Notes under the pieces: generated by a model
Database searches by the model: none
Told to the model about the DNA's origin: nothing
What the model saw: the letters and a program-made list of their open reading frames with translations, nothing else
In this document: positions 4,844 to 43,639 of the stretch, in pieces
Layout: every line of letters starts with the position of its first letter
Position numbering within the stretch: position 1 is the first letter of the stretch
NCBI RefSeq assembly: GCF_030068505.1
Contig: NZ_JAQOSO010000025.1
Span: forward strand, 1 to 49,434
Length of the DNA stretch: 49,434 nt
Source of the DNA: Roseofilum capinflatum BLCC-M114
Lineage (GTDB): Bacteria > Cyanobacteriota > Cyanobacteriia > Cyanobacteriales > Desertifilaceae
Direction: 5' to 3'
Made by a program: the position numbers and the translations under genes

Positions 4844-7800
4844 TCAATCGCACAGAGAGAGGCTCTCTTCTTGGCCGGTGGGATTATTCTCCAAATAGCC
4901 TTGTAACCATTCACACCCTGTTTCCAGCAACTGGTCAAGCTCTAACTGCTCTAAATGCCATAGAGTAACCCGTCCATCTCCACCGACGGAAATCAGGGTT
5001 TTGCCATCGGAGGTAAAACTGAGTCCGTTGATGGAACGATGGGAACTTGCAGTCAGTACATGCAGTAAGGTTCCATCTTTGCGCCAGAGGCGAATCATGT
5101 TATGGCTGGCGGATGCTAATCGTTCTCCGTCTGGACTAAAAACAACACTGGTGACCGTGTTGCCTTCATGTTCCAGGGGTTCAACCAGGAGTTGCCCTTG
5201 GCGGTTCCAGAGTTTGACCCGACTATCATAACTGGCTGTGGCGATCGCCTGACCATCGGGAGAAAACGTTACTCCCCAAACTCCTGCCCGATGGCGCAGA
5301 GTGCCCACCTGAGTGCCATCTGTGCGCCAGAGCTTCACCCGTCCCTCATCGCTGGCAGCAGCCACAAGCTGACCATCGGGGCTAAAACTGACCCAATTAA
5401 TGGCAGAATTATCCGTAACCAAGGTTTTTAATAATGTGCCATCTCTGCGCCACAACTTCACCCTATAATCCTTACTCCCAGAAGCAATCAACTGACCATC
5501 CGGACTGACACTGACACTGAGAACCACATCCCGATGACCTTTCAGAGATTGCAGCAGCTCTCCCTCTAGGTTCCAGACTTTGACTTGGCGATCGTCCCCT
5601 GCGGTTACCAACTGCTGGCTATCTGGTGTAAACGCCACCCCCCAAACCTCTCCCTGATGACCTTTCCAGGACTTCAACTTCCTCCCATCCGGCTGCCATA
5701 GGGTAATCATGCCATTCTCCCCAATCGTGGCAATTTTCCGACCATTTCCACTCACGCTCACCCCATTGAGCGGCCCACCCCCGTCCCAAACCTCCATCAA
5801 AGCCTTATTCAAACGCCACACCTTCGCCGACTTATCCAAACTTGCTGAAACAATGCGATTTCCATCCGGACTAAACGCCACCTTGGGAACCCAATGGGTA
5901 TGACCCATTAACGTTTTTTGTAAAGTGCCATCTAAAGCACTCCAAATTTTAATCGTCTTATCCTTACTGGCCGTTACAAACTGTTCACCATCCGCACTAA
6001 ATCGTACATCCAAAACTGTATCGTCATGGGCTTCAATTTCAGTAATCAACCCTTCTTCAGTCCAAAAACCAACCGTTCCTTTTCGCTGACCTGTTTGCTC
6101 CTCAATTACCTGACCGGCAACCGCCAACAATCCCCTGGGCGACCAACTCATCCCATACACTTCTTGCTCAGTGATAAACGTTTTCACGAGGGTTCCATCC
6201 AAGCGCCAAAAACGAATTTTACGCTCTAAACTCGCCGTCGCCACCCACTGACCATCGGGAGAAAATACCACACTTAAAACTGAAGAATCATGGGGTAAAC
6301 TCACTACCTCAGAGCCATCTTGGTTCCATATTTTCACCGTTTTATCGCGACTAGCAGAAGCCATTAACGGATTCTCTAGATCTTGATTAGCAGCTAGGTC
6401 AATAATTTGGTCAGTATGGCCCTTTAATTCCACATATTCTATCCGATCTGAGCTGGTTACTGCGGCCAACTCAGGCAACTGGCCTAAATTCCATACTTTA
6501 ATCGTATGATCCCAACTGCCAGATGCTAACCGTTGGCCATCGTCTAGAAATACTAAACTGGTAATAACCTCTGTATGACCGGGAATGGTAAAACCAGGCT
6601 TTCCTTGTTCATCCCAAATGCGAATTGTGCGGTCTTCTCCTGCGGTAGCAATCACTTTTCCATCGGGGCTAAAGGTGGCTGCATAAACCCCATCTTTATG
6701 ACCCTCTAAGCGATTTTCTTCGCTAATTTTGTAAACGGCATAGGATAAGGTTTTCTCAATCGTATCCGACACCGATTTTGGCACAAATGGTGTAGTTTTA
6801 ATTTGCTCTCCTGCTTTAATTCCTGTGGTTAAGCCTTCAATTTCTTTATTTAATCCCACTAAAGCCTCGGACGATGTGCCTAACGTTTTGATTTGATTAA
6901 TCACTCCATTCCAAGCAAATCCTGTTAACCCGACAATAAAACAACCTGCACCCACTAAAAGAGAATTTAAGATCAATTTGCGCTGTTTTTCGCTCTTTTT
7001 TTCTTTCGCTTTCGCTTCAGCTAATGCGGTTAATAAATCATTCTCTTGGCGTAGTTTGTCCAGCATAAACTGTCCTTCTGAAAACCGTTGCTTTTCCTGA
7101 TCTAGGGCTTCGGAGTCAGAAATGGAATGATTTTCAGCATCAGGACTATAATCCCCCAAGTTTTTTTCCACCAGTTCATAGCGCTCATCCGCTAACTTAG
7201 AAATGAGCAAATTTTGATGGCGTAATTGGTCAATTTCTTTCTGGTTTTGGGCATTTTGTTGCTGAAGTTGGGATCGCTCCTGATTAATCGCCTGATTTTT
7301 CTGGGTTTGGATAAACTCCACTAGATAATCATGAATCAACTGATAGCGCGGTTCGGGTTGTTCGGGAATCAGATAAATTAAGCCTGAACCACAGAAAATT
7401 TCTAAAATTAGGGTCAGGGTTTCGGAGGCGAGATCGGAACCCATTTCTACTAAAATTTCTGACTTGGTTTTTAGGGGGCGATTTCCGTCTTCATCAATAA
7501 AAGAGTAAACCGCTTTGCGGGCGTGATACTCATTCTTTTGGCCACAATCCTCAATGACGGAGTTCAAAAAGTTCTCGACTAATTTCTGCTTGGATTCTAC
7601 TTGACGATATTGTTCTAATGTGGTAATGTTGAGGTCTTGAAGTTGAGAGCCAACAATTTGTAATTCAATGGGTCTCACTTCATGGGTTCCCACAGATAAA
7701 TCTGCAACTAAGGCTTCAATTAAATCATCATCGAGTTCAAACTGAGTGTGACGAGTCAAATTTTTAATGACTTCAAAGGTATGCGCTCTGGAAAAATTAC

Positions 7801-9973
7801 CCAATGCATAGCGGTTACTTTTATCGAGCAAATTACAGCCGATACCCTCTAAGGATATATTTTGTTCAATTTCTAAGAGATGGTGTAAATAATCTTCCCG
7901 AATCGAAATAATAATTTTGAGTCCAGAGCGATGCAAACAGTGTTCTAAAAATTGATAAAATTCTTGTCGTTTTTCAGTCCGATCGCAGACAAAGAAAAAT
8001 TCTTCAAATTGGTCAAAAATGAGTACCGTTAATCCATTTTGCTCGGCGATTTCATCTAAGTTTTGCAGATAAAGTTTTGGGGTGTAATCGGAAAGTTCAG
8101 AATGGCTAAATTGAAAGGGTTTTAAGGATTCCTGTAAGGCTTTCCCCAAGTTCACTACCCAATCGGAATAGACCCGCATCACGACGGGAATCGGAATTTG
8201 ATCGCCGAGAGTTTTTCGGTGTAAAGTGGGTACTAATCCTGCATTAACAATTGAACTTTTTCCGACTCCAGAAGGGCCATGAATGACGGTAATTTTATAA
8301 TCGGAACGACTAATCCGATAAACTAGGTTTTGAACATCATTTTGACGGTTCGAGGTGGAGATGGCTTCGGCAACTCCTCCCATTTTTTCATCGGTTTCTA
8401 TCGGATTAGAAAAGAGGGGATTTAAGGCTTGTTGAGTGGGTCTTAATTGGGCTGCACCGACAAAGGGGCGTAATCCATACTGGGATTGGACGGCACGCTG
8501 TTCTTGTTTGAGTAAGAAGGCTTCTCGATAACACTGTTCGTGAAAATAGAGCGATCGCACGCCTTTTAATAAGCGTAAATATCGGTGTGGGTCGTGGCGA
8601 GAATTGCTTTCTTTGATCGCTATTTTTAGCTTCTGTTTTGCTTGTGTTAACTTCTGATTTGCCCGTTCCTGCTGCTTCAGATGGCGCAAACATCGAACGA
8701 ATTGTAATTGAAATAACTGAGACCAAAGGAGAGGGTATAATCCCTGGGATACAGGGGTGAAAGTATTGCTGTCACTGGGGTCTATTTCTGAATCTAAGAT
8801 GGCTAAACATTGCTCGAATCGATCGCGGGCTGTTTCCCATTCTTCTTGTCCTAGGGCTAGTTTGCCTAAAAAACCATAATCGAGAGCTAACTGAAGGGGT
8901 AAGCCATACTGCTGATGTAAATTTAGGGACGTTTGGGTAAACTCTAACAGGGTTTCCCAGTCTTGCAAATGTTGCAGTACATCACTGACTTGTCCCGTGA
9001 TTTGTGCCATTAAATCTTGCCGTCCAGCCTCTTGAAAGCACTGTATAGATTGATGAAAATAATACCAAGATTGTTCCCATAATTCTTGCTGTTCGGGCTT
9101 CTCTTGGGCGGGATAAAAATAACAGAGGCCCAGATAAAATAGGAGTAAGCCTTGATGCTCTAAATTGCCGTCAGAGGATAACTGTTGTTCGTAAGTTAAG
9201 GCGGTTTGATAATAGCCGATCGCGGCTTCAATCTGACCTTGCATCAGTCGGTCATGACCTAACAGAATGGCAACTCTTGCTTGTAAACCGGGAGCAAACA
9301 GGGCTTCTCGACGCTCTAAGGTCGAGAGGGCAAATTCTAACTCGGCTCGATGTTGGCCGCATCCTCCCCGTTTGGAGTTAATAAAAGAGAGGGGAAAGGT
9401 GAGAAGTTGTTTCTGCTCACGACTTAAGAGATTATTTAATAAGGTTTGGGATTTTTGGAGAATGAGGGTCGAGAGCGCTTTGGTGCTGAGATCGAAGGAG
9501 ATGGGATTGGCGGCAAAGTTGGCAAAATCGGGGGCAAGTTGCAAAAATTGATAGAGTAGGCGATCGTTAACCCATAAGACGAGGGGACAGTTGAGTTGTT
9601 TGCGAAATTCGTCCCGGATAACGTTGGTGGAAATTAAGATTTCTTCTAAGTTAATGACCGATTCTAGACCTAAGACCAATAATGCAGAGGGTTGATCTGG
9701 AGTTAGGGCTAGATCGGCTTTAACGCTGCGATAGAGATGGGTAACATTGGGGGATAATTGCAGGCATCTAAACGAGGAAAAATTAGGCGATCGCGCCTTC
9801 AACACCTCCGATAGCTGCTCTAATACCTTTTCTCGCAGTTGACCATAGTTACAGCGTACCAGAATTAAGGAAAACTGACCTTGAGACAGGGTAATCGCTC
9901 GCGCCAACTGGTTCAGGGCCCGTTCATTGTCTATGAAGTCGCAATCTTCCCACTGTTGTTCTGTGCTAACCAT
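4844..9973 (-). CDS. Giant TPR - STAND NTPase - transmembrane - WD40 propeller protein
   Basis: 1709 residues. In order: an alpha/beta domain that looks like a degenerate P-loop or effector-type domain (1-170); TPR-like helical repeats (about 215-500); a STAND-type NTPase (about 520-890) with Walker A GPSGVGKSS (566-574) and Walker B TVLIFDQFEEFF (649-660); a coiled coil (890-1000); one transmembrane helix (about 1000-1021) preceded by a lysine-rich stretch; and about 14 WD40 repeats (1085-1690), enough for two propellers. By the positive-inside rule the NTPase is cytoplasmic and the propellers lie on the other side of the membrane. STAND proteins are ligand-triggered switches that oligomerise on ATP binding. 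Its start overlaps the upstream ATPase gene by 43 bp, indicating a two-gene operon. The ligand and output are unknown. Confidence 0.85.
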   Translation of the reverse strand: MVSTEQQWEDCDFIDNERALNQLARAITLSQGQFSLILVRCNYGQLREKVLEQLSEVLKARSPNFSSFRCLQLSPNVTHLYRSVKADLALTPDQPSALLVLGLESVINLEEILISTNVIRDEFRKQLNCPLVLWVNDRLLYQFLQLAPDFANFAANPISFDLSTKALSTLILQKSQTLLNNLLSREQKQLLTFPLSFINSKRGGCGQHRAELEFALSTLERREALFAPGLQARVAILLGHDRLMQGQIEAAIGYYQTALTYEQQLSSDGNLEHQGLLLFYLGLCYFYPAQEKPEQQELWEQSWYYFHQSIQCFQEAGRQDLMAQITGQVSDVLQHLQDWETLLEFTQTSLNLHQQYGLPLQLALDYGFLGKLALGQEEWETARDRFEQCLAILDSEIDPSDSNTFTPVSQGLYPLLWSQLFQLQFVRCLRHLKQQERANQKLTQAKQKLKIAIKESNSRHDPHRYLRLLKGVRSLYFHEQCYREAFLLKQEQRAVQSQYGLRPFVGAAQLRPTQQALNPLFSNPIETDEKMGGVAEAISTSNRQNDVQNLVYRISRSDYKITVIHGPSGVGKSSIVNAGLVPTLHRKTLGDQIPIPVVMRVYSDWVVNLGKALQESLKPFQFSHSELSDYTPKLYLQNLDEIAEQNGLTVLIFDQFEEFFFVCDRTEKRQEFYQFLEHCLHRSGLKIIISIREDYLHHLLEIEQNISLEGIGCNLLDKSNRYALGNFSRAHTFEVIKNLTRHTQFELDDDLIEALVADLSVGTHEVRPIELQIVGSQLQDLNITTLEQYRQVESKQKLVENFLNSVIEDCGQKNEYHARKAVYSFIDEDGNRPLKTKSEILVEMGSDLASETLTLILEIFCGSGLIYLIPEQPEPRYQLIHDYLVEFIQTQKNQAINQERSQLQQQNAQNQKEIDQLRHQNLLISKLADERYELVEKNLGDYSPDAENHSISDSEALDQEKQRFSEGQFMLDKLRQENDLLTALAEAKAKEKKSEKQRKLILNSLLVGAGCFIVGLTGFAWNGVINQIKTLGTSSEALVGLNKEIEGLTTGIKAGEQIKTTPFVPKSVSDTIEKTLSYAVYKISEENRLEGHKDGVYAATFSPDGKVIATAGEDRTIRIWDEQGKPGFTIPGHTEVITSLVFLDDGQRLASGSWDHTIKVWNLGQLPELAAVTSSDRIEYVELKGHTDQIIDLAANQDLENPLMASASRDKTVKIWNQDGSEVVSLPHDSSVLSVVFSPDGQWVATASLERKIRFWRLDGTLVKTFITEQEVYGMSWSPRGLLAVAGQVIEEQTGQRKGTVGFWTEEGLITEIEAHDDTVLDVRFSADGEQFVTASKDKTIKIWSALDGTLQKTLMGHTHWVPKVAFSPDGNRIVSASLDKSAKVWRLNKALMEVWDGGGPLNGVSVSGNGRKIATIGENGMITLWQPDGRKLKSWKGHQGEVWGVAFTPDSQQLVTAGDDRQVKVWNLEGELLQSLKGHRDVVLSVSVSPDGQLIASGSKDYRVKLWRRDGTLLKTLVTDNSAINWVSFSPDGQLVAAASDEGRVKLWRTDGTQVGTLRHRAGVWGVTFSPDGQAIATASYDSRVKLWNRQGQLLVEPLEHEGNTVTSVVFSPDGERLASASHNMIRLWRKDGTLLHVLTASSHRSINGLSFTSDGKTLISVGGDGRVTLWHLEQLELDQLLETGCEWLQGYLENNPTGQEESLSLCD
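4846..4884. repeat. Copy 2 of the 39-bp imperfect direct repeat
   Basis: This copy is the true 3' end of the WD40 gene on the minus strand. With copy 1 at 51-89 it brackets the Uma2, AAA and S8 genes in direct orientation, at about 89% identity. Confidence 0.6.
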
Positions 9974-11334
9974 TGTTTAAACTTTTGATGCTCGCATAGG
10001 GCAGGATTAAGGGCAAACCAAGAGCCTTCTGAATCTCGATACTCAAAGACGAACATGCTCCGTAATAGGGTCAAGTATTCGAGGTCTCCCTGTACGCTTT
10101 GGTGATTAACCACCCGATACAACAGTTCCCATTCCTCATCCTTAATGGAGGTGGTTAAATAATCCCGGCGGTCTCGAATCACTGCTTCTAGTATATCCCG
10201 TGTAAAGGGCGGGTCTTCTTGTTGCAGACAACTAAAGAGCATTCCTAACAGGTTTCGCATGTGACCCCCACTGACTTCACAGAGCCGGTCTAAGGTGTCG
10301 GGGTGGTCAAAGAGTTCTAAAATATGGCCTTGCTGTTCTTCTAGGGTTTGGTCTGGAAAGGCACGGGTTAAGACCATATGGTGCAACAGTTCCATTCCCT
10401 GGGAAAAGGGTTGTCCACTGCGGGTTTTGACGGGAACCATGGGTAAGACTTTGGGGGTAATGCCTCCTCCGAGGCGATTTTTGAGGGTTTCGCATTCACT
10501 GGAAAAAATCAGGGAGAGGGGAATGGTATAGACGAGGTGACAGTCGAGTTGACGCAGTTGCGCTCCCCGGTCAATGAAGAGATATTCGGGTAAGAGTCGT
10601 CCGGTGGGCCCGGCTTGATTATGTACCCGGTCGAGGTTATCGACGATAACGACTAATCCTTTTTTTCCCTGACGCTTGAGTTGGCTGTTGGCGACTTGCA
10701 GCAGTTCTTGGTTAATGGCTGCTAAGATACTGGCGGTTCGGGGTTCGAGATAGTTGCGGAGACGATGGCGCAGTTTTTGGCTTTCTTTGGTTTTGGCGGT
10801 GATTTTGGCGATACCGAGGGGAAGGGAAAATTCCATTTCGCCGCTCGTGTTGGCGCTGAGGTCTCCGACTCCGGGAATGGAGGCTTCGGCACTGAGGTCG
10901 ATGGGGGTTTGGAGGAAGTCTACGGCATCTTTGAGCAGGGTTTTGAAGGTGCGCGGTTGCAGTTCGATGGAGCGCTGCTGTAGATGTTCGCTGACTTGAC
11001 GGGCGATCGCCAGTAAAATGTCGGTAATGTCGATATCGCCCATATCCAGGTCTTCTGAGGACTCGAAATAGACGACCTCAAAGCCTTGTTCTTCTAGCAA
11101 AGCCTTTAAGCGCAGGAGTTCGGTGGATTTCCCGCAGCCAATATGGCCGGTGAACAGTTGGCAAGTGGGGCGATCGGGGGATAGGGTGATGATCGTACGA
11201 CCCAAAGCTTTGACAATTTTGCCCCCCCGCACAGAAGAAAAATCAATATAATAACGACGGTTGTCTGGATCGCCCAAGTCTAACGGTGCAGATGGATTAC
11301 AAGCTTGGTAGAATCGCCCTAAGTCTATGGTCAT
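9931..11334 (-). CDS. P-loop ATPase paired with the STAND-WD40 protein
   Basis: A 467-residue P-loop NTPase with Walker A GHIGCGKST (63-71) and Walker B LVVIVDNLDRV (227-237), the latter typical of AAA/STAND ATPases. The region 100-200 is a poorly conserved insert. The C-terminal 180 residues are helical and end in a winged-helix-like segment. There is no signal peptide or membrane helix, so it is cytoplasmic. Its 3' end overlaps the start of the 1709-residue STAND-WD40 gene by 43 bp, strongly suggesting that the two ATPases form one complex or signalling chain. Nothing in the sequence defines the effector. Function is unassigned; a regulatory or conflict-related role is inference from the domain class. 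Confidence 0.75.
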   Translation of the reverse strand: MTIDLGRFYQACNPSAPLDLGDPDNRRYYIDFSSVRGGKIVKALGRTIITLSPDRPTCQLFTGHIGCGKSTELLRLKALLEEQGFEVVYFESSEDLDMGDIDITDILLAIARQVSEHLQQRSIELQPRTFKTLLKDAVDFLQTPIDLSAEASIPGVGDLSANTSGEMEFSLPLGIAKITAKTKESQKLRHRLRNYLEPRTASILAAINQELLQVANSQLKRQGKKGLVVIVDNLDRVHNQAGPTGRLLPEYLFIDRGAQLRQLDCHLVYTIPLSLIFSSECETLKNRLGGGITPKVLPMVPVKTRSGQPFSQGMELLHHMVLTRAFPDQTLEEQQGHILELFDHPDTLDRLCEVSGGHMRNLLGMLFSCLQQEDPPFTRDILEAVIRDRRDYLTTSIKDEEWELLYRVVNHQSVQGDLEYLTLLRSMFVFEYRDSEGSWFALNPALCEHQKFKQWLAQNNSGKIATS

Positions 11335-30909: not shown

Positions 30910-33900
30910 CTAGAGCATTCTGCGTAGATCTTCAAATAAACGGTAAGCCTCATCCATCTCGAAGTCTTCGAGCTGATCTTCGAGCTGGGAAATTTTTGGT
31001 TCTAGGGGAGTATTAGCCGCTTCGTGTTTTAAATCATCTACTAAGGCGATCGCCTCAATCAAATCGGTCTCTAGTAGTTCTAGAATCTCACCAATCAAGC
31101 CCGCAATCCGTTCCCGGTTCCATTGTTTCTGCTCTTCTTGAGTCTCAGGTAACCCTTGAATGCCCTCTAGAACTTCCTCTAAGGCTTCGAGTAATTTGAC
31201 TTTACCGAGCTGCAACTGTTCAATATTGAGGGTCTCTAATCCCAGCATCTGTTCCAAAGTCCGGGCCCATTGGTACACTTGTTCGGCTCCGATATTACCG
31301 GCTGCTCCTTTCAAACTGTGAACCTGTTCTAATGCTTGTAGCCAGTTTTGAGAGTCGATCGCGGCCTGGAAATGTAAATCAAAGTCCTGACATTGTTGAT
31401 AAAATACCTTCAGTAATCCTTCGTAGGATTCCCAGTTGCCTCCAATACGGTCTAAACCGGCATCAACATTAATACCAGGTAGAGAGGGGGTAATGGGTTT
31501 CTGGTCTTCATTCTGATGCGACTCATCGCTGGCGCGGCTCACCTCTAGGGCTGGAGTATACATTCCTGGAGGAATCCAGCGCACGAGAGCTGAGTATAAC
31601 TCGTCTGGATTCACGGGTTTAGCCACATGATCGTTCATGCCTGCGGCTAAACTTTTAGCCCGATCGCCATCCATAGCATGGGCAGTCATGGCAATAATGG
31701 GCACAGTCGCAAACCGCTCCGTTTCTAAATCTCCCTCCTCTGCCATTGCCCGAATCTTCCCCGTTGCCGTTAATCCATCGATCTCCGGCATCCGAATATC
31801 CATCAAAATCAGATCGAAAGCGTAGGATTTGACTCTCTCGATCGCCTCTTTACCATTTGTCGCCCAATCCACCTTCAGCCCCACACTCTGCAACAACTCC
31901 CGTGCAATCAAAGCATTCACCTCATTATCTTCGACCAACAAAATCTGAGCGCCTTGGATCTGTTGCAGTTCTTCCTCTAAAACAGAACCAGAAGGAGTGA
32001 GTCTATTGTCGTGCAGAGGGACGTTATAGCCCAAAATAATCATAATCGTCTCTAATAATTGAGAGCGATTAATTGGTTTAGTCACCAAATGATTCTCATC
32101 TAACCAAGGGGTCTCTCCTAGAAACCGTTCTTGAGAATGGGCGGTAACCATTAAAATGTGAGGGATAGCAGACCAATTGGCATCGGATTTAATCTCTCTT
32201 AAAGTTTCCACACCATCCATTCTGGGCATATAAGCATCAATTAAAACCAGGTCGAACGGCTTATCCATTGTCTCTTGTAAGGAAGCGATCGCCTCTTGGC
32301 CAGAACCCACGGCGATCGCTTGCAAGCCAAACGAATTTAAGATCTTAATGAGCATCTCCCTAGAAAAAGGATGATCGTCAACCACCAATACCCTGAAGCC
32401 TTCCCAATTAGGTAGCTCCAAAGATTGATAGTTCTCCCCTAAACCACACAAATACGGAAACTCCAATTCAAAAGAAAAAGTCGTCCCCTGATTCACCTGA
32501 CTTTCGACCTGAATCATGCCCCCCATTAACGTCACCAGACGTTTGCAAATGGCTAATCCTAACCCAGTTCCCTGGTATTTGCGACTAATGGACGCATCCG
32601 CCTGGGTAAAGGCTTCAAATAAGGTATTGAGCTGATCTGGAGTTAACCCAATCCCCGTATCGTTGACTTCAAACTTAAGCTTAACCGACCGTTCCGTTAA
32701 GGCGGAGGTCTCAATAGCAATCATCACACAGCCTTGTTCCGTAAACTTAATCGCATTACTGGTCAGATTAATTAACACCTGGCTCAACCGCAGAGAATCT
32801 CCGATCGCATAACTGGGCACATCACTATCGACTTCAAACAACAAGTCGAGTCCTTTTTCTTTCGCCTTAAATGAAAACAGATTATACAAGTTGTCTAAAA
32901 TTGATTCTAATTGAAAGGGAGCCTTTTCGAGTTGCATTTTCTCCGCTTCAATCTTAGAAAAGTCTAAAATATCGTTCAAAATTGCCAAGAGGGACTGGGC
33001 TGATTTTTCAATGTTTTTTAAGTAATCTTTCTGCTCTTCATTTAAGTCAGTTTTCAGGATCAAATGAGTCAGACCTAAAACCCCATTCATCGGGGTGCGG
33101 ATCTCATGACTCATGAGCGCTAAAAACTCACTTTTAGCCCGATTTGCATATTCGGCAGCTTCCTTGGCTTCTTGTAATTCTTGTTCGACTAATTTGCGCT
33201 CCGTAATATCTACGGACATGCCAATCACCCGGATCGGTTCTCCGTTTGGATCTTGTACAACGGTGGCATTGACTTCAAACCACAGATAAACCGCATCGTC
33301 TGGATCTTCAGAAACGATCACTCGATGCTCAACTTGGAACGATCCCCCTTCGGCGATCGCCCTTTGATTGGCGCGATCGAGAATTTCAACATCATCAGGA
33401 TGAACCCTAGCTAAAGACTCCTGATAAGAGAGTTGTACCGGCATATCTGATGTAACTGTTGAGGAAAAATAGATTTGATCGGTTCGCAGATCGTGTTGCC
33501 AGGCGATCGCCTTAGAAACCTCTAAAGCTAATAATAATTGAGTTTCTCGCTCTTGCAGGGCGAGTTGGGCTAATTTTCGAGCAGTGATATCAAAGCGAAT
33601 GGTCAAATATTGAAAGGGTTTACCCTTCTCATTAATGAAGGGCACAATGGTACTAGAAACCCAATATAACTGGCCATCTTTAGAGCGATTACAAATTTCT
33701 CCAGTCCAAATGTTGCCGCCACTAATGGTAAGCCAAAGATCTTGGAAAAAGGCGGGTTCATGGTAGCCTGAGTTGACAACTCGATGGGTATAACCGATCA
33801 GTTCCTCCCGTGAGTAGCCGGAAACCCAACAAAAATGCTCATTAACGTAAGTAATAATTCCTCTTGAATTCGTAATGGCAACAATTGCGGATTGATCGAG

Positions 33901-36900
33901 AGCCTCCTTAAAACAAGATAACTCAGCAATCAGTTCCTGGCGTTCTAGCTCCCCTTGTTTGCGGGTGGTAATTTCTCGGAAAATTCCCTGAATTAAGGTT
34001 TCATCTTCAATGGTAATGACGGAAGCAGACACATCAACCGGCACAAGCTCGTCAGTTTCATCTTGGCACTCTATATCGAAGAGTTGATAGATGTCTTGAT
34101 GGGCGATCGCCTCAAACGCCCTTATAATCTCTACTGATGCTTCTGGTGGGAACAAGTCACTCCAGTACATTTGGCACAGTTGCGCTCGACTGTAGCCGAA
34201 TAATTCTTCTGCCTTGATATTAACTTCCTGAATTTTGCCCTGGCAATCTGTTAACACAATCGCATCCCCTGCTCCATCCATGAGCGCTCGATAGCGAGCT
34301 TCCCGATCCTGTAGAGCCGCCGTGCGCTCAATTACTTTATGTTCGAGTTGCTGATTGAGTTCTTCCAGGAGACGGCTGGCTTTTTGGCGTTCGAGTTCTG
34401 CCCCTGCACGAGCTGCAAACACCCGAAGGATTTTTTCTGCCCACTGGGGATTTTGCAAGGGTTGAGTGTCTAAAATACAAAGATTACCGATCGCCTCTCC
34501 TTGAGTATTATGTAAGGCAATTCCCAGATAGCTCTCGGCAGAGATTTGCGCTAAATACAGATCGTCGGGAAACTGCTGCTGAATGCACTCAACACAAGCA
34601 TAAACTCCCTCTTCAAGACTTTGCTCGCAAGGCGTGTTTGCCAACTCACAACTAAAATTGGGTTGCCATCTCCCCTCACCCCAAAACGCTAAAGTAGAGA
34701 GTCTATCCTCAACCCTTTCCGTCACGATGGCATAAGAAACCTTGAGGGTTTGGCTAATATATTCAACCAAGGTCGGAAAAAAATCTGCTCCAGTGGTTGC
34801 TGCGGTTCCCATGACCAAATTATCTAGGGCAGCTTGGGTTTGTTTGCGCTCGGTAATATCTTGCATCAGCCCTAACACATGGTGGGTTCCTTCTTCACCC
34901 TGGAGTAAAGATGTGGAGATGGCGATCAGTCGTTTAGAACCATCCTTGCGTTCAATTTCCCATTCTTCAGCCATCAGGTTATTCCCGTCTCGCATCTGCT
35001 CCATGCGAGCGATCGCCTGCTCTTGGATTTTCGGGTCTGGATACAAACTCTGATACCAGCCTAAGCGATTAATTTCCTCTAGGGTATAGCCGGTAATCCT
35101 TTCCATTTGCTGATTCCAGACAGTGAACTGGACAAAAGGAAATCCTTCAATGTTATGACAGACACATAACCCTTCCGCCATTTGGTCTAAAATTTGCCCA
35201 GAAAAGCGATTTTCCTGTTCAATACGCAATTGGGCGGATTGGCGATCGCTAATATCCGTCACACTCCCCACATAACCCAGCACTTCCCCAGTATGATCGC
35301 GCTCGACCACCGATTGTCCATAGACCCAAATCACCCGACCATCCGTATGTTGCAGGCGGCACTCTAGGCCAAAAGAGGCATTGTTTTCAACCGCTTGTGT
35401 CCAAGCCTTCAGCAGTCTTGGCCGATCCTCTGGATAGATCGTGTCGATCCATTTGTCTCCCAGAGCTTCCTCTGGAGGGACTCCCGTCAGGGCAGACCAT
35501 TGGCGATTCACATAAATACACTGACCTGCCCGATCCATGCGGAAAATAGCCACGGGAAGGGCTTCTGCTAAACTGGCGTAACGTTTCTCACTTTGGCGCA
35601 GACGATGTTGGGCCTCTTCTTTTTCTTTGAGTTGCTGTTGTAGGTTTTCGTGGGTGGTTGCCTGTTGAAGGGCAATCTCTAAATGTACGCCTAACCCTTG
35701 CAAGAGCTTGACTTCTGACGGTTTCCATAGACGCGGTTGCCCACTTTCGCTCACATTCAGCCAACCCCAGACTTGAGAGGTGCAATTGTTGCAATGTAAA
35801 GGGACTAGAATTTGCGATCGAATATCCAAGTCCCTCAACTGTTGGCGATAACCCTCGGAGAGGGGAGCGGTTTCAATGTTGGCGAGGTTCCAAATCCCGT
35901 CTTCAAAAGAGTCGCGATCGATCTCTGGGATACAGCAGCCGATGATCTCACCGAGGTGAGACAATTGGCCGGGATCGATGGATTCGGCAACGACCTGGAC
36001 TTCTCCATGGGGTTGTTGCTGCCATATTTGCACCCGATCTGACCCCAGTAAGGGTCTGACCTGTTCCACGGTCGTTTGCAAAATGGGGTCTAAACTTAGG
36101 GAAGAGCGAATCTGAGCAGCAATATCCGCCATCAGTTTCTCTCGCTCTAATTCGGCATTGCGAGCTTCGAGTAAGGCTACCTTCTCCGTTTGCAGGTGTA
36201 TGACTTGTTGTTCCAAACTTTCGGCTACTTTATATAGCTCTAGAGGGTTGAGCGATAATGCTTCGCATCGCTGTCGCGATCGCCATAAGTGGGTTTCTGA
36301 GATCATTCCACAGAGTTGGCCTTCAGTAGACGTAACCACCACACGGCTGATTAAGTGCTTCTCCATCAGTTGCACTGCTGCTAACAGGGAATCATCCGGT
36401 CGCAGGGTAAATACCGGATGACTCATCACATTCTCGGCGATCGTCCGTTCCCCGTTCACCCCCAAAGCATGAAATTGCACCAAATCACGCTCTGTAAGTA
36501 TACCCACCGGAACCCCATTTTCGGCGATCGCCACACAATCGGCCGAATGCTCGGCCATCTTTTGGGAAATCTGCCATAGGGAATCCTGGGGACTCGCGCA
36601 AATCACCTCCTGTGTCATCACTTCTTGCACTAAACACAAGCGCAATATATCCATCGGCCCAAACCCTGGCCTCAGACTCTCATAAGTCACCAATCCCACC
36701 AGATTGTCTTCCGGGTCAACAATCGGTAGATGGCGAATTTGATGCACTTTGAGTCGGTTAATCCCGATTGATACATCCGTAAACTCTTCCTCCTGTAAAG
36801 TAATGACGGGATGGGTCATCACCTCTGAAACAGTGAGTTGGTCTAGGGGTTGTCCTTGAGCAAATAAGCGTACCAGATCTTGCTCTGTCAGAATACCGGT

Positions 36901-37125
36901 TACTTTTCTACTTTCTGTGACAATAACGCAACTAGAAAGGGATTTAATATAGAGATCCTCAGCCATCCTCTGGTGACTATCCGTTAAGTTGCAATTGATG
37001 CAAACGGTACTCATTTTGGCGATCGCCTCACTCACGGGAGCATCGGCTGATACAACCAAGGCATCTCTGAGGATAGCGTCGTGACACTCGCTCCGTTTCA
37101 TCAAGATGGTAAAGTTCAAGAACAT
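30910..37125 (-). CDS. Multi-sensor hybrid histidine kinase (CBS x4, GAF, PAS, HK, REC-REC, HPt)
   Basis: A 2071-residue cytoplasmic signalling protein. In order: two CBS pairs (about 10-290), GAF (330-495), PAS (510-630 and 640-765), GAF (780-915), three more PAS domains (935-1310), HisKA with His1340 in [10 protein letters not shown], HATPase with GTGLGLAI (1519-1526), receiver 1 with Asp1630, receiver 2 with Asp1776 in LILMDIRMP, and an HPt domain with His1936 in [11 protein letters not shown]. All phosphorelay residues are present, so it can carry out a complete internal relay. The first GAF lacks a bilin-type cysteine. CBS domains suggest adenine-nucleotide sensing. No transmembrane segment is seen. 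An ATG at 37101 is an alternative start. A kinase-less paralogue lies 147 bp upstream on the same strand. Confidence 0.9.
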
Positions 37126-37272
37126 GGCTCAGTTTACAGCGCTTCACGCTGGTAATCGGTCATCGGTCATCGGTTAGCCGTTTTTCCCTTAAAAATTACC
37201 ATAGCGTACAAATCAGCATGGAGGAGACGCGGGTGTCCAGTTCCATCCCATTGCCGTAGCATCTAACGGGTC

Positions 37273-39267
37273 TCAAATTTCTGCTACTCGATCTTCCCGG
37301 TCTTGATTGAGTTCTTCTAGGGCTAACTGGGCCTGTTTGAGATCGGTTTCCATATGTTTGCGATCGCTAATATCAGTGATGCTACTTACATAACCGATGA
37401 CCTCTCCCTCATGGTTGCGCTCTACTGTCGATTGAGCATAAACCCAGCACATCTGGCCATCAGGCTGTTGCAAACGAAACTCTAATTCACAGCTAGAGTG
37501 ATGTTCGAGAGCATGAACCCAGGTATTTCTCACCCGTTCCCGGTCGTCTGGATGTACGGCCTGCATCCATCCCTCTCCCATGGACTCTGCTTCCGAGAGT
37601 CCGGCCAATAGACACCAGCGCTGATTGACATACACACATTGACCGGCCTCATCCGTGCGAAATACCCCTACCGGCAGGCTCTGGGCTAGAGTAACGTATC
37701 GTTTCTGACTCTCGATCAGGAGGCTTTCAGCCTGTTGTCTTTCCCGCAGTTCTTGGACTAATTTTTGGTGGGTGCTTGCTTGGCGGATGGCGATCGCCAG
37801 TTGTACCCCAATTTCTTCTAATAGGGTCTGTTCTTCCTGACTCCAGTTGCGATAATGGTCGCATTGGTGGCTGATTAGAAATCCCCAGAGTTTTTCTTCT
37901 AGGGCGATAGGAATTACGAGATTGGACTTGATGTGATACTGGGCTAATCGGTCGAGATGGCAGGGGGTATAGCCAGCCCTGTCCACATTAGGGACAGCAA
38001 TGGAGCGATCCTTAGTTAGGTTACTAAAACAAGAGTCGGCGATCGTATGGCCGAAGACGGAGGGCCATTGAGGATCGACGGATTCAGCAATGATGTGCCC
38101 TTGGCCCTTGCCTTGAAATTCACACACTACCACGCGATCGCACCCTAAAAGCCTCCTCACTTCCGAGACAGCCACCTCTAAAACCTCTTCTAGATCCAAG
38201 GACTTACGAATCCGGTTGGCAATATCGGCCACCACTTGCTCCCGCTCCCGTTGCGCTTCCAAAGCAGCCGTTCTCGCTTGCACTTGGGCTTCGAGTTCAG
38301 CGTTGCGCCTCTGCAACAGAGACAGTTTTTCTGCCTCTAGATGGTTAACTTTACCTTCTAAGACTTCCACCAATTTGTAGAGTTCTAAGGGATTTAGAGC
38401 CTGTAACAGGCTAGTTTGAGTCACAATTCCCAACAGTTCTCCATCCTCGCGTGTCACCACCACTCTCCGGATAAAATATTGCTCCATCATTTGCTGTACC
38501 CTCCAGAGAGAATCTTGGGGTTTAACCGCAAAAATGGGGCTGCTCATTAAGCTCTGAGCCATGTAGTCTTGCAGATGGGGATAGAAACTATGAAATTGAA
38601 CCAAATCTCGCTCGGTAATCATGCCCACAGGAACATTGAGGGAACCGCTAGAAGTCTCACGAGATTCTACGATCGCCACAGAACTCACCCGGTGGTTGGC
38701 CATCAGTTGGGAAATCTGCAATAGAGAAGTCTGAGGAGCCGCACAAATTACCTGGGGACTCATCACTTCTTGGACTTCTCGCAGACGCAATAGATCGATA
38801 GGGCAAGAGATCTGGCGTAAGCTTTCATGGGTGATTAGACCTGCTAGGTGGTTTTGGGCATCGAGAATGGGGAGATGGCGAATCCGGTGCTGTTTGAGCA
38901 AGTTAATGGTAAAAAACAAGTCAGTCAACTCTTCTTCTTTGAGGGTGACAACAGAAGGACTCATCACCTGTTCAACGCGCAAATAGGAAAGGGGTTGCCC
39001 TTGGGCCAGTAAACGGACGACATCACGCTCAGTGAGGATACCGATCACTTTTTGGTTGTCGATGATAATGACACAACTGGAGAGGACTTCGAGGTGGAGT
39101 TGATTCCGTTGAGTGTCTTGAGTGCGAGTAGTGTGGCAACACAGATGGGCAGCACTCATTTTCGAGATCGCCTCTCGCACATTGGCATTAGGAGCGACCA
39201 CCAAGGGATGTCTAACAATGGCGGATTTGAGTTCAGTCGGGGTTAGATCTGTGGCAGGATTTAACAT
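37273..39267 (-). CDS. CBS x4 - cyanobacteriochrome-type GAF - PAS protein without kinase
   Basis: A 664-residue paralogue of the first 640 residues of the downstream hybrid kinase: two CBS pairs (about 10-290), a coiled coil (300-345), GAF (345-500) and PAS (515-640), ending in a short coiled coil with no output domain. The GAF carries DSCF (411-414) and Cys436-His437 in GYTPCHLDR, followed by NLVIPI and HQCD. These are the DXCF motif and the bilin-anchoring Cys-His of two-cysteine cyanobacteriochromes, so covalent phycocyanobilin/phycoviolobilin binding and blue-light sensitivity are predicted. The stop is clean, with no nearby kinase remnant. Lying just upstream of the kinase gene, it may pair with it through the shared CBS/coiled-coil parts; that is inference. 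Confidence 0.85.
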   Translation of the reverse strand: MLNPATDLTPTELKSAIVRHPLVVAPNANVREAISKMSAAHLCCHTTRTQDTQRNQLHLEVLSSCVIIIDNQKVIGILTERDVVRLLAQGQPLSYLRVEQVMSPSVVTLKEEELTDLFFTINLLKQHRIRHLPILDAQNHLAGLITHESLRQISCPIDLLRLREVQEVMSPQVICAAPQTSLLQISQLMANHRVSSVAIVESRETSSGSLNVPVGMITERDLVQFHSFYPHLQDYMAQSLMSSPIFAVKPQDSLWRVQQMMEQYFIRRVVVTREDGELLGIVTQTSLLQALNPLELYKLVEVLEGKVNHLEAEKLSLLQRRNAELEAQVQARTAALEAQREREQVVADIANRIRKSLDLEEVLEVAVSEVRRLLGCDRVVVCEFQGKGQGHIIAESVDPQWPSVFGHTIADSCFSNLTKDRSIAVPNVDRAGYTPCHLDRLAQYHIKSNLVIPIALEEKLWGFLISHQCDHYRNWSQEEQTLLEEIGVQLAIAIRQASTHQKLVQELRERQQAESLLIESQKRYVTLAQSLPVGVFRTDEAGQCVYVNQRWCLLAGLSEAESMGEGWMQAVHPDDRERVRNTWVHALEHHSSCELEFRLQQPDGQMCWVYAQSTVERNHEGEVIGYVSSITDISDRKHMETDLKQAQLALEELNQDREDRVAEI

Positions 39268-39370
39268 TCACAGTTAGGAGCTATGTCTATATTCTTGATT
39301 ATCAACGATCGAATAAAGCGTGTATGATAAAAACTCAGAAATCTTAAGAGCCACACCACCCAAGCCCGTT

Positions 39371-40414
39371 ATGGATCAGTCCCCTGCCGACTTATTAGCC
39401 CTTTTGGGGGAACAACCCCAACTCGATTTTAATTTACCCGATCCTGATGATGAGGAGATTGCCGATCAGGAGTTTCAGGAGCGTCTAGATACGGCCTGGT
39501 TGGTTTGCGATCGCTTTGATTTGCAAACGGATATTTGGCGGGGTAGAATTTTGCGGGCGATCCGCGATCGCGAAAAAAAAGGCGGTGATGGTCGGGGTAC
39601 GGGGTTTATTAATTGGTTAAAATCGAAGGAAATTACTAAAAGTCAAGCCTATTCTTTAATTCAATTGGCCAATAGCGCCGATACCTTAGTCGAAGAGGGA
39701 CAATTAGACCCCGAATCGGTGAATAATTTTAGTAAACGGGCCTTTGTAGAAACGGCAAAAGCACCGGTAGAAGTGCAACAATTGGTCACCGATGCAGCCA
39801 GTCGGGGCGATCGCATTACCCGCCGAGAAGTGAAACAATTGGCCGATGAATGGACAGCCATGTCTTCCGATCTCTTGCCCAATGAAGTCAAGGAAAAAGC
39901 CGCCTCCGGAACCATGGCTTCTAAGCATTTGGCCCCCTTAGTCAAAGAATTGGGCAAACTCCCGGATACTCACCTACAGAGTATTCAACAAGAGGTAGCG
40001 GCTAACCCGGATGTGGAAACGGTTAAACAAATGACCTCAGAAGCCCGGAGTCTAGCCAAATATTTGGATGCAGCCGCCCAAGTGCAAATCCTGAGTCAAT
40101 CCTCCGTAGATTTAGAGATGGCCCTAGATGAGAGCTTGCGGTTAGGGTGTTTAAGTACGGCCTCGGAACTGCTCAAACAAGCCACCCAACTCGAACAAAC
40201 GGTAGCCAAATTATATTTAACCTGGCGAAGGTTGGGGAATCTAGCCGATCGCCTGTTTGTAGACACAGGAGCGAGTACCCCCCATCTAAGATCCATGCTT
40301 AATCAACTCGGCCCCCTCACCAGTGAAATTCTAGAGGTTCCCCTACAAGATCGGCTCCCCGATGAAGAAGGCGATCGCTCCAGCATCCGCCTACAATGGC
40401 TCTCAGATTCCTAA
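39371..40414 (+). CDS. Conserved cyanobacterial hypothetical protein (DUF3102-like N-terminus)
   Basis: A 347-residue soluble, mostly helical protein. The part RILRAIRDREKKGG to INWLKSKEITKSQAYSLIQLA resembles the DUF3102 segment found in ParB-like and phage-associated proteins, which carries a helix-turn-helix-like fold. The remainder is unassigned and helical. I chose ATG 39371; a GTG at 39320 extends the frame, but a TATGAT hexamer at 39323-39328 would then lie inside the gene. It is divergent from the cyanobacteriochrome gene. A chromosome- or DNA-related role is a guess. Confidence 0.6.
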   Translation: MDQSPADLLALLGEQPQLDFNLPDPDDEEIADQEFQERLDTAWLVCDRFDLQTDIWRGRILRAIRDREKKGGDGRGTGFINWLKSKEITKSQAYSLIQLANSADTLVEEGQLDPESVNNFSKRAFVETAKAPVEVQQLVTDAASRGDRITRREVKQLADEWTAMSSDLLPNEVKEKAASGTMASKHLAPLVKELGKLPDTHLQSIQQEVAANPDVETVKQMTSEARSLAKYLDAAAQVQILSQSSVDLEMALDESLRLGCLSTASELLKQATQLEQTVAKLYLTWRRLGNLADRLFVDTGASTPHLRSMLNQLGPLTSEILEVPLQDRLPDEEGDRSSIRLQWLSDS

Positions 40415-40689: not shown

Positions 40690-41385
40690 ATGCAGCAGCT
40701 TGCAGTTAGCACTGAACTCGACTATCAAAGTGAAACTTACAAAGATGCCTATAGCCGGATCAATGCGATCGTCATTGAAGGGGAACAGGAAGCCTATGAC
40801 AATTACATTAACTTGGCTAGTCTGCTGCCCAATGACAAAGAAGAATTAACCAAGCTGGCGAAAATGGAAAAACGCCACATGAAAGGCTTCCAGGCTTGCG
40901 GCAACAACTTAAGCGTCACCCCCGATATGGCGTTTGCCAAAGAATACTTTAATCAACTGCACCAAAACTTTCAGGATGCTCTAGCCGAAGGCAAAGTGGT
41001 TACCTGTCTGCTGATCCAATCCTTGATTATTGAGTGCTTTGCGATCGCCGCCTACAATATCTATATTCCCGTGGCTGACCCCTTCGCTCGCAAAATCACC
41101 GAAGGAGTCGTCAAAGACGAATATACCCATCTCAACTTCGGAGAAGAATGGCTCAAAGCCAACTTTGAAGACTCTAAAGCCGAACTGCAAGAAGCCAACC
41201 GGCAAAACTTGCCCATCGTCTGGAAAATGCTCAATCAAGTGGAAAAGGATGCCAAAATCCTAGCCATGGAAAAAGAATCCCTGATTGAAGACTTCATGAT
41301 TGCCTATGGTGAAGCCCTCGGCAACATTGGATTTAAAACCGGGGAGATCATGCGGATGTCTGCCTATGGTCTGCGACCCTGTTAA
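40690..41385 (+). CDS. ado: Aldehyde deformylating oxygenase (alkane synthesis)
   Basis: A 231-residue ferritin-like di-iron enzyme that converts fatty aldehydes to alkanes plus formate using oxygen and an external reductant. All six iron ligands sit at the canonical positions: Glu32, Glu60, His63, Glu115, Glu144 and His147. Length is exactly the family norm. AGGAG lies about 11 bases upstream of the ATG. It is cytosolic and acts with the aldehyde-producing reductase encoded next. A strong terminator separates the two genes, so ado probably has its own transcript. Confidence 0.97.
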
Positions 41386-41439
41386 CCTGGGTTGAGACAG
41401 TTTTCCATTGATTTATTGCTTTCCCAGATTCGCGGACAG

Positions 41440-41474
41440 AGACCGGTCGGACTTAGCTCTCCGATCGGTCTTTT
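41440..41474 (+). terminator. Rho-independent terminator between ado and aar
   Basis: AGACCGGTCGGA (41440-41451) pairs with TCCGATCGGTCT (41460-41471) with one mismatch across an 8-base loop, followed by TTTT. It lies 55 bp after ado and 72 bp before aar. Confidence 0.8.
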
Positions 41475-41545
41475 GCGCTGTCGATTTCCTATTTCGTTCC
41501 ATTCTCCTTTACTCTAAATAGCAGACGGCTTAACTTAGTACATCC

Positions 41546-42574
41546 ATGTTTGGTCTGATCGGTCACCTTACTAGCTTAGAACATGCCCAATCCGTTGCCA
41601 GGGATTTGGGATATCCAGAATATGCAGATCAGGGGTTAGATTTCTGGTGTTCTGCCCCCCCGCAAATTGTGGACAACATAAAAGTCACCAGTGCTACCGG
41701 ACAAGTAATTGAAGGTAAGTATATCGAATCGTGTTTTCTACCTGAAATGCTTGCCAATCGGCGGATTAAAGCGGCAATCCGCAAAATTCTCAATGCCATG
41801 GCCCATGCCCAGAAAAATGAAATTGATACCACCGCCTTGGGGGGATTTTCCTCAATTATCTTTGAAGAATTTAATCTTCATGACAACCCACGGGTGCGAA
41901 ATGTAGAATTAGATTTTCAAAAGTTTACGACCGGTAATACCCATACCGCTTATATTATTTGCCAACAGGTGGAGCAAGTAACGGCTCAGTTGGGGATCGA
42001 TCTATCCCAAGCAACGATCGCCGTTTGTGGAGCAACCGGCGATATCGGGAGTGCCGTCTGTCGATGGCTGAACCAGAAAACAGATGTGGCAGATTTGCTA
42101 TTAGTCGCTCGCAATCAAGAACGGCTGAGAACCCTGCAATCGGAACTCGGACGAGGCAAGATCTTGGCCCTAGAAGAGGCTCTACCCCTAGCCGATGTGG
42201 TGGTTTGGGTGGCGAGTATGCCCAAAGGGGTAGAAATTGACCCTTCAACGTTGAAAGATCCCTGTTTGATGATTGATGGGGGATATCCAAAAAATTTGGG
42301 CACGAAACTGCAAGATACCGGAGTGTATGTGGTCAATGGCGGCATTGTGGAACATTCCCTGGATATTGAATGGCAAATTATGCAGATTGTGCAAATGGAC
42401 GTACCTCAACGTCAATTATTTGCTTGTTTTGCCGAAGCCATGCTTCTGGAATTTGAACAGTGGTATGAGAGTTTTTCTTGGGGACGTAATCAAATTACCG
42501 TGGAAAAAATGGAGAAAATAGGCAAATCTTCCTTAAAACATGGATTTCGCCCCCTGTTATTGTCCAAAATGTAA
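41546..42574 (+). CDS. aar: Long-chain acyl-ACP reductase (fatty aldehyde forming)
   Basis: A 342-residue NADPH-dependent enzyme that reduces acyl-ACP to fatty aldehyde for the deformylating oxygenase. The nucleotide-binding motif GATGDIGSA is at 162-170 and the catalytic Cys294, in [10 protein letters not shown], is at the position known for cyanobacterial AAR. The N-terminal [14 protein letters not shown] is typical. It follows ado after a terminator and precedes accA by 84 bp, the conserved order in alkane-producing cyanobacteria. A weak TACTCT -10-like hexamer lies near 41510. Confidence 0.97.
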
Positions 42575-42658
42575 GGCAAAAATCTGCCTGTAGATGACCC
42601 GAATCCGATAAAATTGGAAACGGGTGGATCAATAAACTGTTATTTTCCTTTAGTGAAT

Positions 42659-43639
42659 GTGAGTACCTCTGAACGTAAACCCCTACTGCTCGATTTTGAA
42701 AAGCCACTGTTTGAGCTAGAAAACCGAATTAAACAAATTCGGGAATTGGCCCAGGAAAACGGTGTCGATGTCTCGGATCAAATTCATCAGTTGGAAGGAC
42801 GAGCGATTGAACTGCGAGAGGAGATTTTTACCAATTTGTCTCCCGGCCAACGATTGCAATTGGCTCGCCATCCCCGTCGTCCCTCGACGTTGGACTATAT
42901 CCAATCTATCAGTCAGGAGTGGATTGAGTTGCATGGCGATCGCTGTGGCGGTGACGATCCGGCCCTGGTGGCCGGTATTGGCCGCATTGAAGGGCGATCG
43001 GTGGTGATGCTCGGCCATCAAAAGGGCCGGGACACCAAAGATAATGTGGCCCGTAATTTTGGCATGGCTTCACCCGGAGGCTATCGCAAGGCCATGCGAT
43101 TGATGAATCATGCCAATCGCTTTGGGATGCCCATCCTAACATTTATTGATACTCCAGGGGCTTGGGCAGGGTTGCAAGCAGAAGAACTAGGACAGGGAGA
43201 GGCGATCGCCTATAATTTGCGGGAAATGTTCCGCCTCGATGTCCCCATTATTTGCACCGTCATTGGTGAAGGCGGATCGGGAGGAGCATTAGGCATCGGT
43301 GTGGGCGATCGCCTGCTGATGTTTGAACATGCGGTCTATACCGTCGCTACCCCAGAAGCCTGTGCTGCCATTCTCTGGAAAGATGCTAAAAAATCTCCCC
43401 AAGCAGCAGAAGCCCTCAAAATTACGGCCGAAGACTTAAAACAATTGGGGATTTTAGATGACCTATTACCTGAACCCCTAGGTGGCGCTCATGGCGACCC
43501 CCTAAAAGCCTCTCATATCCTCAAAACCTCTATCCTCCGTCACCTGTCTGAACTCGATACCCTATCCCCTAAACAACGTCGAGACCAGCGCTATCAGAAG
43601 TTTAGACAGATTGGAGTCTTTTTGGAAGCCAGCGCCTAG
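42659..43639 (+). CDS. accA: Acetyl-CoA carboxylase carboxyltransferase subunit alpha
   Basis: The alpha half of the carboxyltransferase that transfers carboxyl from carboxybiotin to acetyl-CoA, giving malonyl-CoA for fatty-acid synthesis. [34 protein letters not shown] and [14 protein letters not shown] are the crotonase-fold signatures. I chose GTG 42659 (MSTSERKP..., 326 residues, matching the usual cyanobacterial length); GTG 42653 and TTG 42614 are in frame upstream. It lies just after aar, linking substrate supply to alkane synthesis. Confidence 0.95.

Follow-up and report, generated by a model that had tools for sequence, protein, structure and literature searches.

Gene A' of Roseofilum capinflatum BLCC-M114 very probably encodes what a deletion left of a CBS-cyanobacteriochrome hybrid histidine kinase: the N-terminal sensory part remains and the catalytic part is gone. 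The original prediction had treated the lack of a kinase as the architecture of this receptor. Instead, the missing kinase reflects a deletion, observed in a single genome, because three syntenic orthologues are full-length hybrid kinases, orthology breaks off at position 37278 and a remnant of the next gene, C, lies in the gap beyond. A' thus looks like a reduced relative of a common cyanobacterial light-sensor kinase rather than a new receptor design. All positions refer to the window, the whole stretch of 49,434 nucleotides that was analysed, and the features discussed are collected in Table 1.

Table 1. Positions of gene A', its domains and motifs, the deletion scar and gene D in the window.
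Feature	Positions	Strand	Basis or remark
Gene A', probable truncated hybrid kinase: CBS x4 - linker - GAF - PAS	37273-39267	minus	664-aa ORF
CBS region of A', about aa 17-291	38395-39219	minus	limits by eye from alignment
GAF domain of A', aa 358-494	37786-38196	minus	Pfam, E 1.8e-21
DSCF motif of A', aa 411-414 (second Cys = C413)	38026-38037	minus	alignment
Canonical Cys-His of A', aa 436-437	37957-37962	minus	23 residues past C413 versus the usual 28
PAS domain of A', aa 523-633	37369-37701	minus	Pfam PF00989, match over about aa 523-635
Deletion scar between A' and D; orthology with G005 gene A ends at 37278	37126-37278	minus	DNA alignment
38-nt internal remnant of gene C, a lost REC-histidine kinase gene	37215-37252	minus	alignment versus shuffles
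Gene D leader, which matches that of the G003 copy	37126-37207	minus	score 70 versus shuffle maximum 24
Gene D, 2071-aa CBS-GAF-PAS-...-HisKA-HATPase-REC-REC-Hpt hybrid kinase	30910-37125	minus	Pfam

A' is an open frame that ends after the PAS domain

In the list of open reading frames of the window, A' is uninterrupted, and a Pfam scan (E up to 0.001) recovered the anatomy given in the original prediction: four CBS domains, a GAF domain and a PAS domain without an output domain. The strand, which that prediction had left unstated, is minus, and the residues it had named, D411-S412-C413-F414 and C436-H437, are exact in the translation. The CBS match comprises four stretches (E 5.9e-39; best stretch, residues 239-291), so that A' carries the paired CBS domains of a CBS (Bateman) sensor. 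Two of the CBS repeats retain a G-x-x-T-x-x-D pattern (GILTERD and GMITERD), which we take to be tied to adenosine-ligand binding and which is a putative ligand site here. When all 664 residues were scanned at E up to 0.001, no Pfam family was found beyond the PAS domain. HisKA and HATPase are absent from the Pfam matches to these residues, as is a C-terminal GGDEF domain; A' itself is therefore neither a hybrid histidine kinase nor a SesA-like CBS-cyanobacteriochrome diguanylate cyclase.

Full-length orthologues and a scar between A' and D

Syntenic orthologues of gene A were found in three genomes of the same genus, G005 (Roseofilum acuticapitatum BLCC-M154; 1907 aa), G001 (1862 aa) and G002 (1601 aa). 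All three end in REC and, by Pfam, all three contain HisKA, HATPase_c and Response_reg, which makes them hybrid kinases. The closest comparison is with the R. acuticapitatum protein (locus L213), to which A' is 73% identical over residues 1-663. The two share the CBS4-GAF-PAS order and the GAF clade, but the orthologue runs on into HisKA-HATPase-REC by Pfam whereas A' ends after the PAS domain. Similarly, a CBS kinase of Spirulina sp. CS-785/01 (G036/L183) has the same domain order and GAF clade at 49% identity, but extends to 1850 aa, a difference known here from its length.

In G005, G001 and G002, gene A is followed on its 3' side by a REC-kinase gene, C (about 364-371 aa), and then by gene D; the G005 cluster has one extra kinase gene between A and C. 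At the syntenic place G003 lacks both A and C, and G004 has just a 45% copy in a different neighbourhood. The five other same-genus genomes searched yielded no further syntenic copy without a kinase. In the ancestral Roseofilum cluster, gene A (CBS4-GAF-PAS...-HisKA-HATPase-REC) and gene D, a second CBS-GAF-PAS hybrid kinase, would have flanked one or two REC-kinase genes.

At the DNA level, A' matches G005 at 51 of 53 nucleotides down to 37278 and at none past that point. The intergenic gap between A' and D is 147 nt long and contains both the gene C remnant and the leader of gene D. The remnant scores 41 against G002 and 36 against G001, whereas the highest score from 100 shuffles was 26; against G005 its score of 28 equals its own shuffle maximum. 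The junction also holds 26 nt of filler, of which at most 17 were matched in neighbouring loci, and no direct repeat was found around it. We propose that DNA was lost from codon 664 of gene A into the interior of the REC-kinase gene, together with most of the remainder of that gene, and that a new stop codon would have arisen directly past the truncation point.

Two further features of the junction were observed. The final 53 nt before the break (37278-37330), which lie in the linker before the PAS/kinase segment, stand out against an identity to G005 of about 75.5% gene-wide, and gene conversion of this stretch is possible. Additionally, an exact 12-nt inverted repeat, GGTCATCGGTTA, brackets the junction at 37165-37176 (in the leader of D) and 37391-37402 (within A'); the same 12-mer is present in the G005 locus.

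Relocation of the kinase part within the genome was considered and rejected. The lost 1243 residues have no close copy elsewhere in this genome (completeness 99.06), the best match reaching 43% over residues 797-1240, and gene C likewise has none, with a best match of 37%.

Selection on the remaining codons

The surviving codons of A' are under purifying selection, with no visible decay. Compared with G005, dN/dS is 0.16 over the ORF (CBS 0.13, GAF 0.19, PAS 0.19). Lineage-specific amino-acid changes number 58 in A' and 58 in G005, with 47 unassigned, in a count that uses G001/G002 as the outgroup although the tree leaves their placement unresolved. Since dS between A' and G005 is near 1, most of the substitution record is probably older than the truncation. 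The lack of decay fits a recent deletion and a retained function equally.

Ancestry of the GAF domain

The claim that this is a cyanobacteriochrome GAF holds by descent: sequence, tree and predicted fold agree in placing it within the cyanobacteriochrome radiation, and its ancestors were two-cysteine (DXCF) cyanobacteriochromes. Compared with solved structures, its best five matches were bilin-binding GAFs aligned along the whole domain or most of it, namely 6oap, a dual-sensor kinase GAF (E 6.7e-33), 6bhn (NpR6012g4, a red/green cyanobacteriochrome), 8k9o (RcaE), 5zoh (AnPixJ) and 3vv4 (TePixJ; E 5.2e-23).

The GAF alignment combined A' with 67 of 119 references, hand-picked among the 75 listed, and a control alignment omitted G001 and G002 (66 rows). 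Placement in a tree had been proposed as a check on the original prediction, with a position outside the cyanobacteriochromes counting against it. In a quick maximum-likelihood tree of 86 GAFs, in which many deep forks are open, A' falls within the cyanobacteriochrome radiation and outside the two phytochromes of its own genome, which split off at a support of 100. Four alignment rows (L058, L029, L039 and L091) are absent from the tree, probably through a different reading of the first codon. A' groups with its three orthologues at support 100, and the Spirulina CBS kinase adjoins them at 95. Together they lie inside a 31-row clade of CBS-linked GAFs (support 85), 27 of which carry both cysteines. 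TePixJ sits in a group neighbouring this clade, not within it.

An AlphaFold2 model of the GAF, built from the alignment of the tree's relatives, had a mean pLDDT of 86.7. In a Foldseek search with this model, the 50 PDB matches listed were bilin-binding GAFs or phytochromes by title; one of them, 3w2z, is titled just "the cyanobacterial protein" and is presumably AnPixJ. Superposed on TePixJ (4glq), the model gave a TM score of 0.86 by target length, and a Spirulina control was slightly better at 0.90. A chance motif, or a GAF that is non-bilin by descent, was rejected on the structure matches, the tree and the Foldseek result. The A' GAF thus has the canonical cysteine and histidine (C436-H437), the Asp-X-Cys-Phe motif (D411-S-C413-F) and the tree placement of a DXCF GAF. 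It resembles TePixJ (3vv4, 4fof, 4glq) in its DXCF and CH cysteines and in its fold, at 28-32% identity over these entries. TePixJ itself is not known to have CBS domains.

Cysteine spacing and the predicted pocket

While the motifs are kept, A' lacks two usual, though not definitional, DXCF traits: a spacing of 28 between the cysteines and a helix past DXCF. C413 and C436 are 23 residues apart. In the 135 two-cysteine CBS+GAF ORFs that we retrieved (described below), the spacing is 28 in 119, 29 in six, 27 in five and 25 in two; 26, 23 and 20 have a single ORF each, and the one with 23 is the G005 orthologue. The spacing of 26, with both cysteines, belongs to an Oscillatoriales MAG. Short loops in two-cysteine CBS GAFs were also seen in Goleter apudmare (20) and in two Chamaesiphon MAGs (25; L210, L223 and L224 for the three). 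For the GAF spacing survey, 144 unique GAFs were kept from 172 domain matches after dropping those below 40 bits, those shorter than 120 aa and repeats; removal of the own copy left 143 plus A', some of these GAFs being without CBS domains. A tyrosine nine residues past the second Cys is present in 111 of the 119 spacing-28 ORFs and is lost in A'.

The A' GAF model has no helix of at least four residues past DXCF; the one control compared, a Spirulina GAF modelled by the same procedure, has a 12-residue helix (residues 77-88) directly past this motif. In TePixJ, one report describes H498 and W499, four and five residues past the second cysteine, as holding the B-ring propionate (PMC6955287). 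The TePixJ cysteines are 28 apart and the segment bearing these two ligands is present; in A' this segment is shortened, and it is helix-free in the model. Other TePixJ residues named in that report, D492, C494, C522, H523 and N535 (PMC6955287), align with D411, C413, C436, H437 and N449 of A' by manual count on the alignment.

The pocket differs again in the orthologues, with Cys-Tyr in place of Cys-His in G005 and both the canonical cysteine and the motif Asp gone in G001 and G002. Among 172 CBS+GAF ORFs, Cys-Tyr with DxCF occurs in 13 and strict DxCF with CH in 79. We suggest that in Roseofilum the GAF lost five residues, which in the models removes the helix behind DXCF, and that the sister copies were altered as well, by change of the histidine (G005) or loss of the canonical cysteine (G001, G002).

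Because of the five-residue deletion and the pocket changes in the orthologues, a blue/green photoreceptor role is doubtful. Judged from sequence and model, bilin binding by the A' GAF is itself doubtful, and we infer that it may have been lost or weakened. Neither the short loop nor Cys-Tyr need abolish bilin binding, since both occur in other two-cysteine or DxCF GAFs. Three Fe_bilin_red matches in the genome exceed the family cut-off, which makes bilin synthesis by this strain probable.

CBS-linked cyanobacteriochrome GAFs are widespread

The original prediction regarded the pairing of CBS domains with a cyanobacteriochrome as unusual, a view that the counts below do not support; at the sequence level such fusions are ordinary. 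Of 291 genomes sampled from the class, 142 have A'-like proteins (E<=1e-60), with some matches not spanning both CBS and GAF; among relatives the number is 27 of 39, and both counts include the own genome. A similarity-based retrieval gave 172 distinct CBS+GAF ORFs, 135 of them with both cysteines; these loci were chosen by similarity to A' or its CBS region and near relatives were counted separately, so that the fractions are no census. The 172 ORFs derive from 199, with A' itself left out. In the classification of loci, 79 of 80 were classified (L228 has no row), each by its first GAF, although the CBS-linked GAF can be a different one.

Four closed CBS+GAF ORFs are shorter than 660 aa (472, 589, 590 and 628 aa). 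On inspection by eye, the stops of two of them, L087 and L173, are directly followed by GGDEF-like frames, and the length of L124 is 628 aa in one count and 2074 in another. Additionally, in L087/L240 (G049), a CBS-GAF-GGDEF gene, the frame contains one or two TAG codons, while the counterpart in the related genome G068 is open.

CBS4-GAF-GGDEF proteins are represented by L036 (= L196, Aphanothece sp. CMT-3BRIN-NPC111, 697 aa), with both cysteines. Like A', this protein carries a two-cysteine DXCF GAF after its four CBS domains; unlike A', it has the 28 spacing and ends in GGDEF. SesA/Tlr0924 is a described CBS-DXCF GAF-GGDEF receptor. CBS domains were not mentioned in the main text of the Tlr0924 papers searched, and a search for SesA/Tlr0924 in Thermosynechococcus and two small genomes returned as best matches CBS-GAF-GGDEF proteins without the cysteines (L153, L088), not SesA. 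A scan of contigs with the A' protein alone gave 12 pattern matches, none of them confirmed.

In the accessible parts of the open literature searched, we found no description of a CBS-cyanobacteriochrome receptor. Those parts that deal with cyanobacteriochromes and CBS domains present CBS domains as general energy-sensing modules, mention that a multi-sensor kinase of Arthrospira has one, and tabulate CBS domains in thermophile kinases. Open literature on output-less receptors and on Roseofilum photoreceptors had nothing on the A' protein.

Kinase D and other genes in the window

Gene D lies directly downstream of A' in the same orientation and is a paralogue of its CBS-GAF-PAS front end, with 47.4% identity over 614 aligned residues. 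In contrast to A', its kinase is intact, and its first GAF belongs to a different clade and is without the canonical Cys. This Cys is lost in the window and G003 copies of the first GAF, and the G001 and G002 copies have Cys-Tyr without the Asp-X-Cys-Phe motif. The first GAF of D groups with CBS-linked, mostly two-cysteine GAFs, making it a second altered pocket in the cluster.

On the other side, a gene for a 364-aa protein (39320-40414) is divergent from A' and has counterparts at the same place in G001, G002, G003 and G005; the protein had no Pfam match at E<=0.001. At 40690-43639 lie a gene for a long-chain fatty aldehyde decarbonylase (PF11266), then one for a 342-aa protein, and accA (PF03255). 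The 342-aa protein has dehydrogenase matches, all below cut-off, and is presumably an acyl-ACP reductase. Elsewhere in the window, two minus-strand genes lie side by side: one (4847-9973) encodes a 1709-aa protein that has an nSTAND1 NTPase and 11 WD40 stretches, the other (9934-11334) a 467-aa AAA-type ATPase.

Discussion

In the full-length relatives, the CBS pairs and the GAF would feed the kinase through PAS and coiled-coil segments. The A' protein is probably still made, and it would be folded but without catalytic output of its own. We consider a recently truncated, still undecayed gene more likely than a sensor-only partner of kinase D, which would pair through CBS, coiled-coil or GAF contacts with the front end of that kinase. 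A deliberate sensor-only receptor, in which adenylates would be sensed by the CBS domains and blue/green light by the GAF, with signalling through protein-protein contact, is unlikely. Such a receptor may act as a putative regulatory or dominant-negative partner of D, and the position, orientation and similar front end of D would suit it. So would the intact A' frame, which is under purifying selection and has gathered no more changes than the branch of the full-length G005 gene, the retention of both cysteines, D411 and H437, some of which are changed in the orthologues, and the bilins probably made by the strain. Additionally, no promoter- or terminator-like site was found between A' and D in 37050-37420, a weak point given shuffle means of just 0.3 and 0.9. 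However, the scar at the truncation point also took out gene C, which looks like an accident. Moreover, the five other Roseofilum genomes hold three full-length copies, no gene (G003) or the diverged copy elsewhere (G004). A split two-input switch, in which a kinase-less A', formed by the deletion and retained by selection, with a DXCF pocket working despite the missing helix, pairs with kinase D (its own first GAF being without the bilin cysteine) and lends it light sensing or blocks it, seems improbable.

Whatever the truncation, the GAF could be a functional DXCF (blue/green) cyanobacteriochrome, a possibility that we hold tentatively and rather doubt. The retained DSCF and CH, the five residues matching those named in TePixJ, the clade and fold, the existence of other short-loop two-cysteine GAFs and a model that fits TePixJ barely worse than the control all speak for it. 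Set against these are the spacing of 23 where 119 of 135 have 28, the missing tyrosine, the shortened and helix-free H498/W499 segment and the changed pockets of the orthologues. An assembly artefact, with the strain having a full kinase and the draft joining the wrong pieces, is very improbable. The draft is in 120 contigs and contains many similar sensors (82 matches to A' at E<=0.001), but neither the lost 1243 residues nor gene C has a close copy in the genome, and the scar combines an interior fragment of C with unmatched filler and no shared repeat.

The design of the receptor is not new, as CBS-linked two-cysteine GAFs form a large cyanobacterial group (135 of the 172 ORFs fetched). With A' as the truncated sensory part of a hybrid kinase, one genus shows both a stepwise change of the pocket and the loss of a kinase, and would lend itself to a natural test of the requirements of a DXCF pocket.
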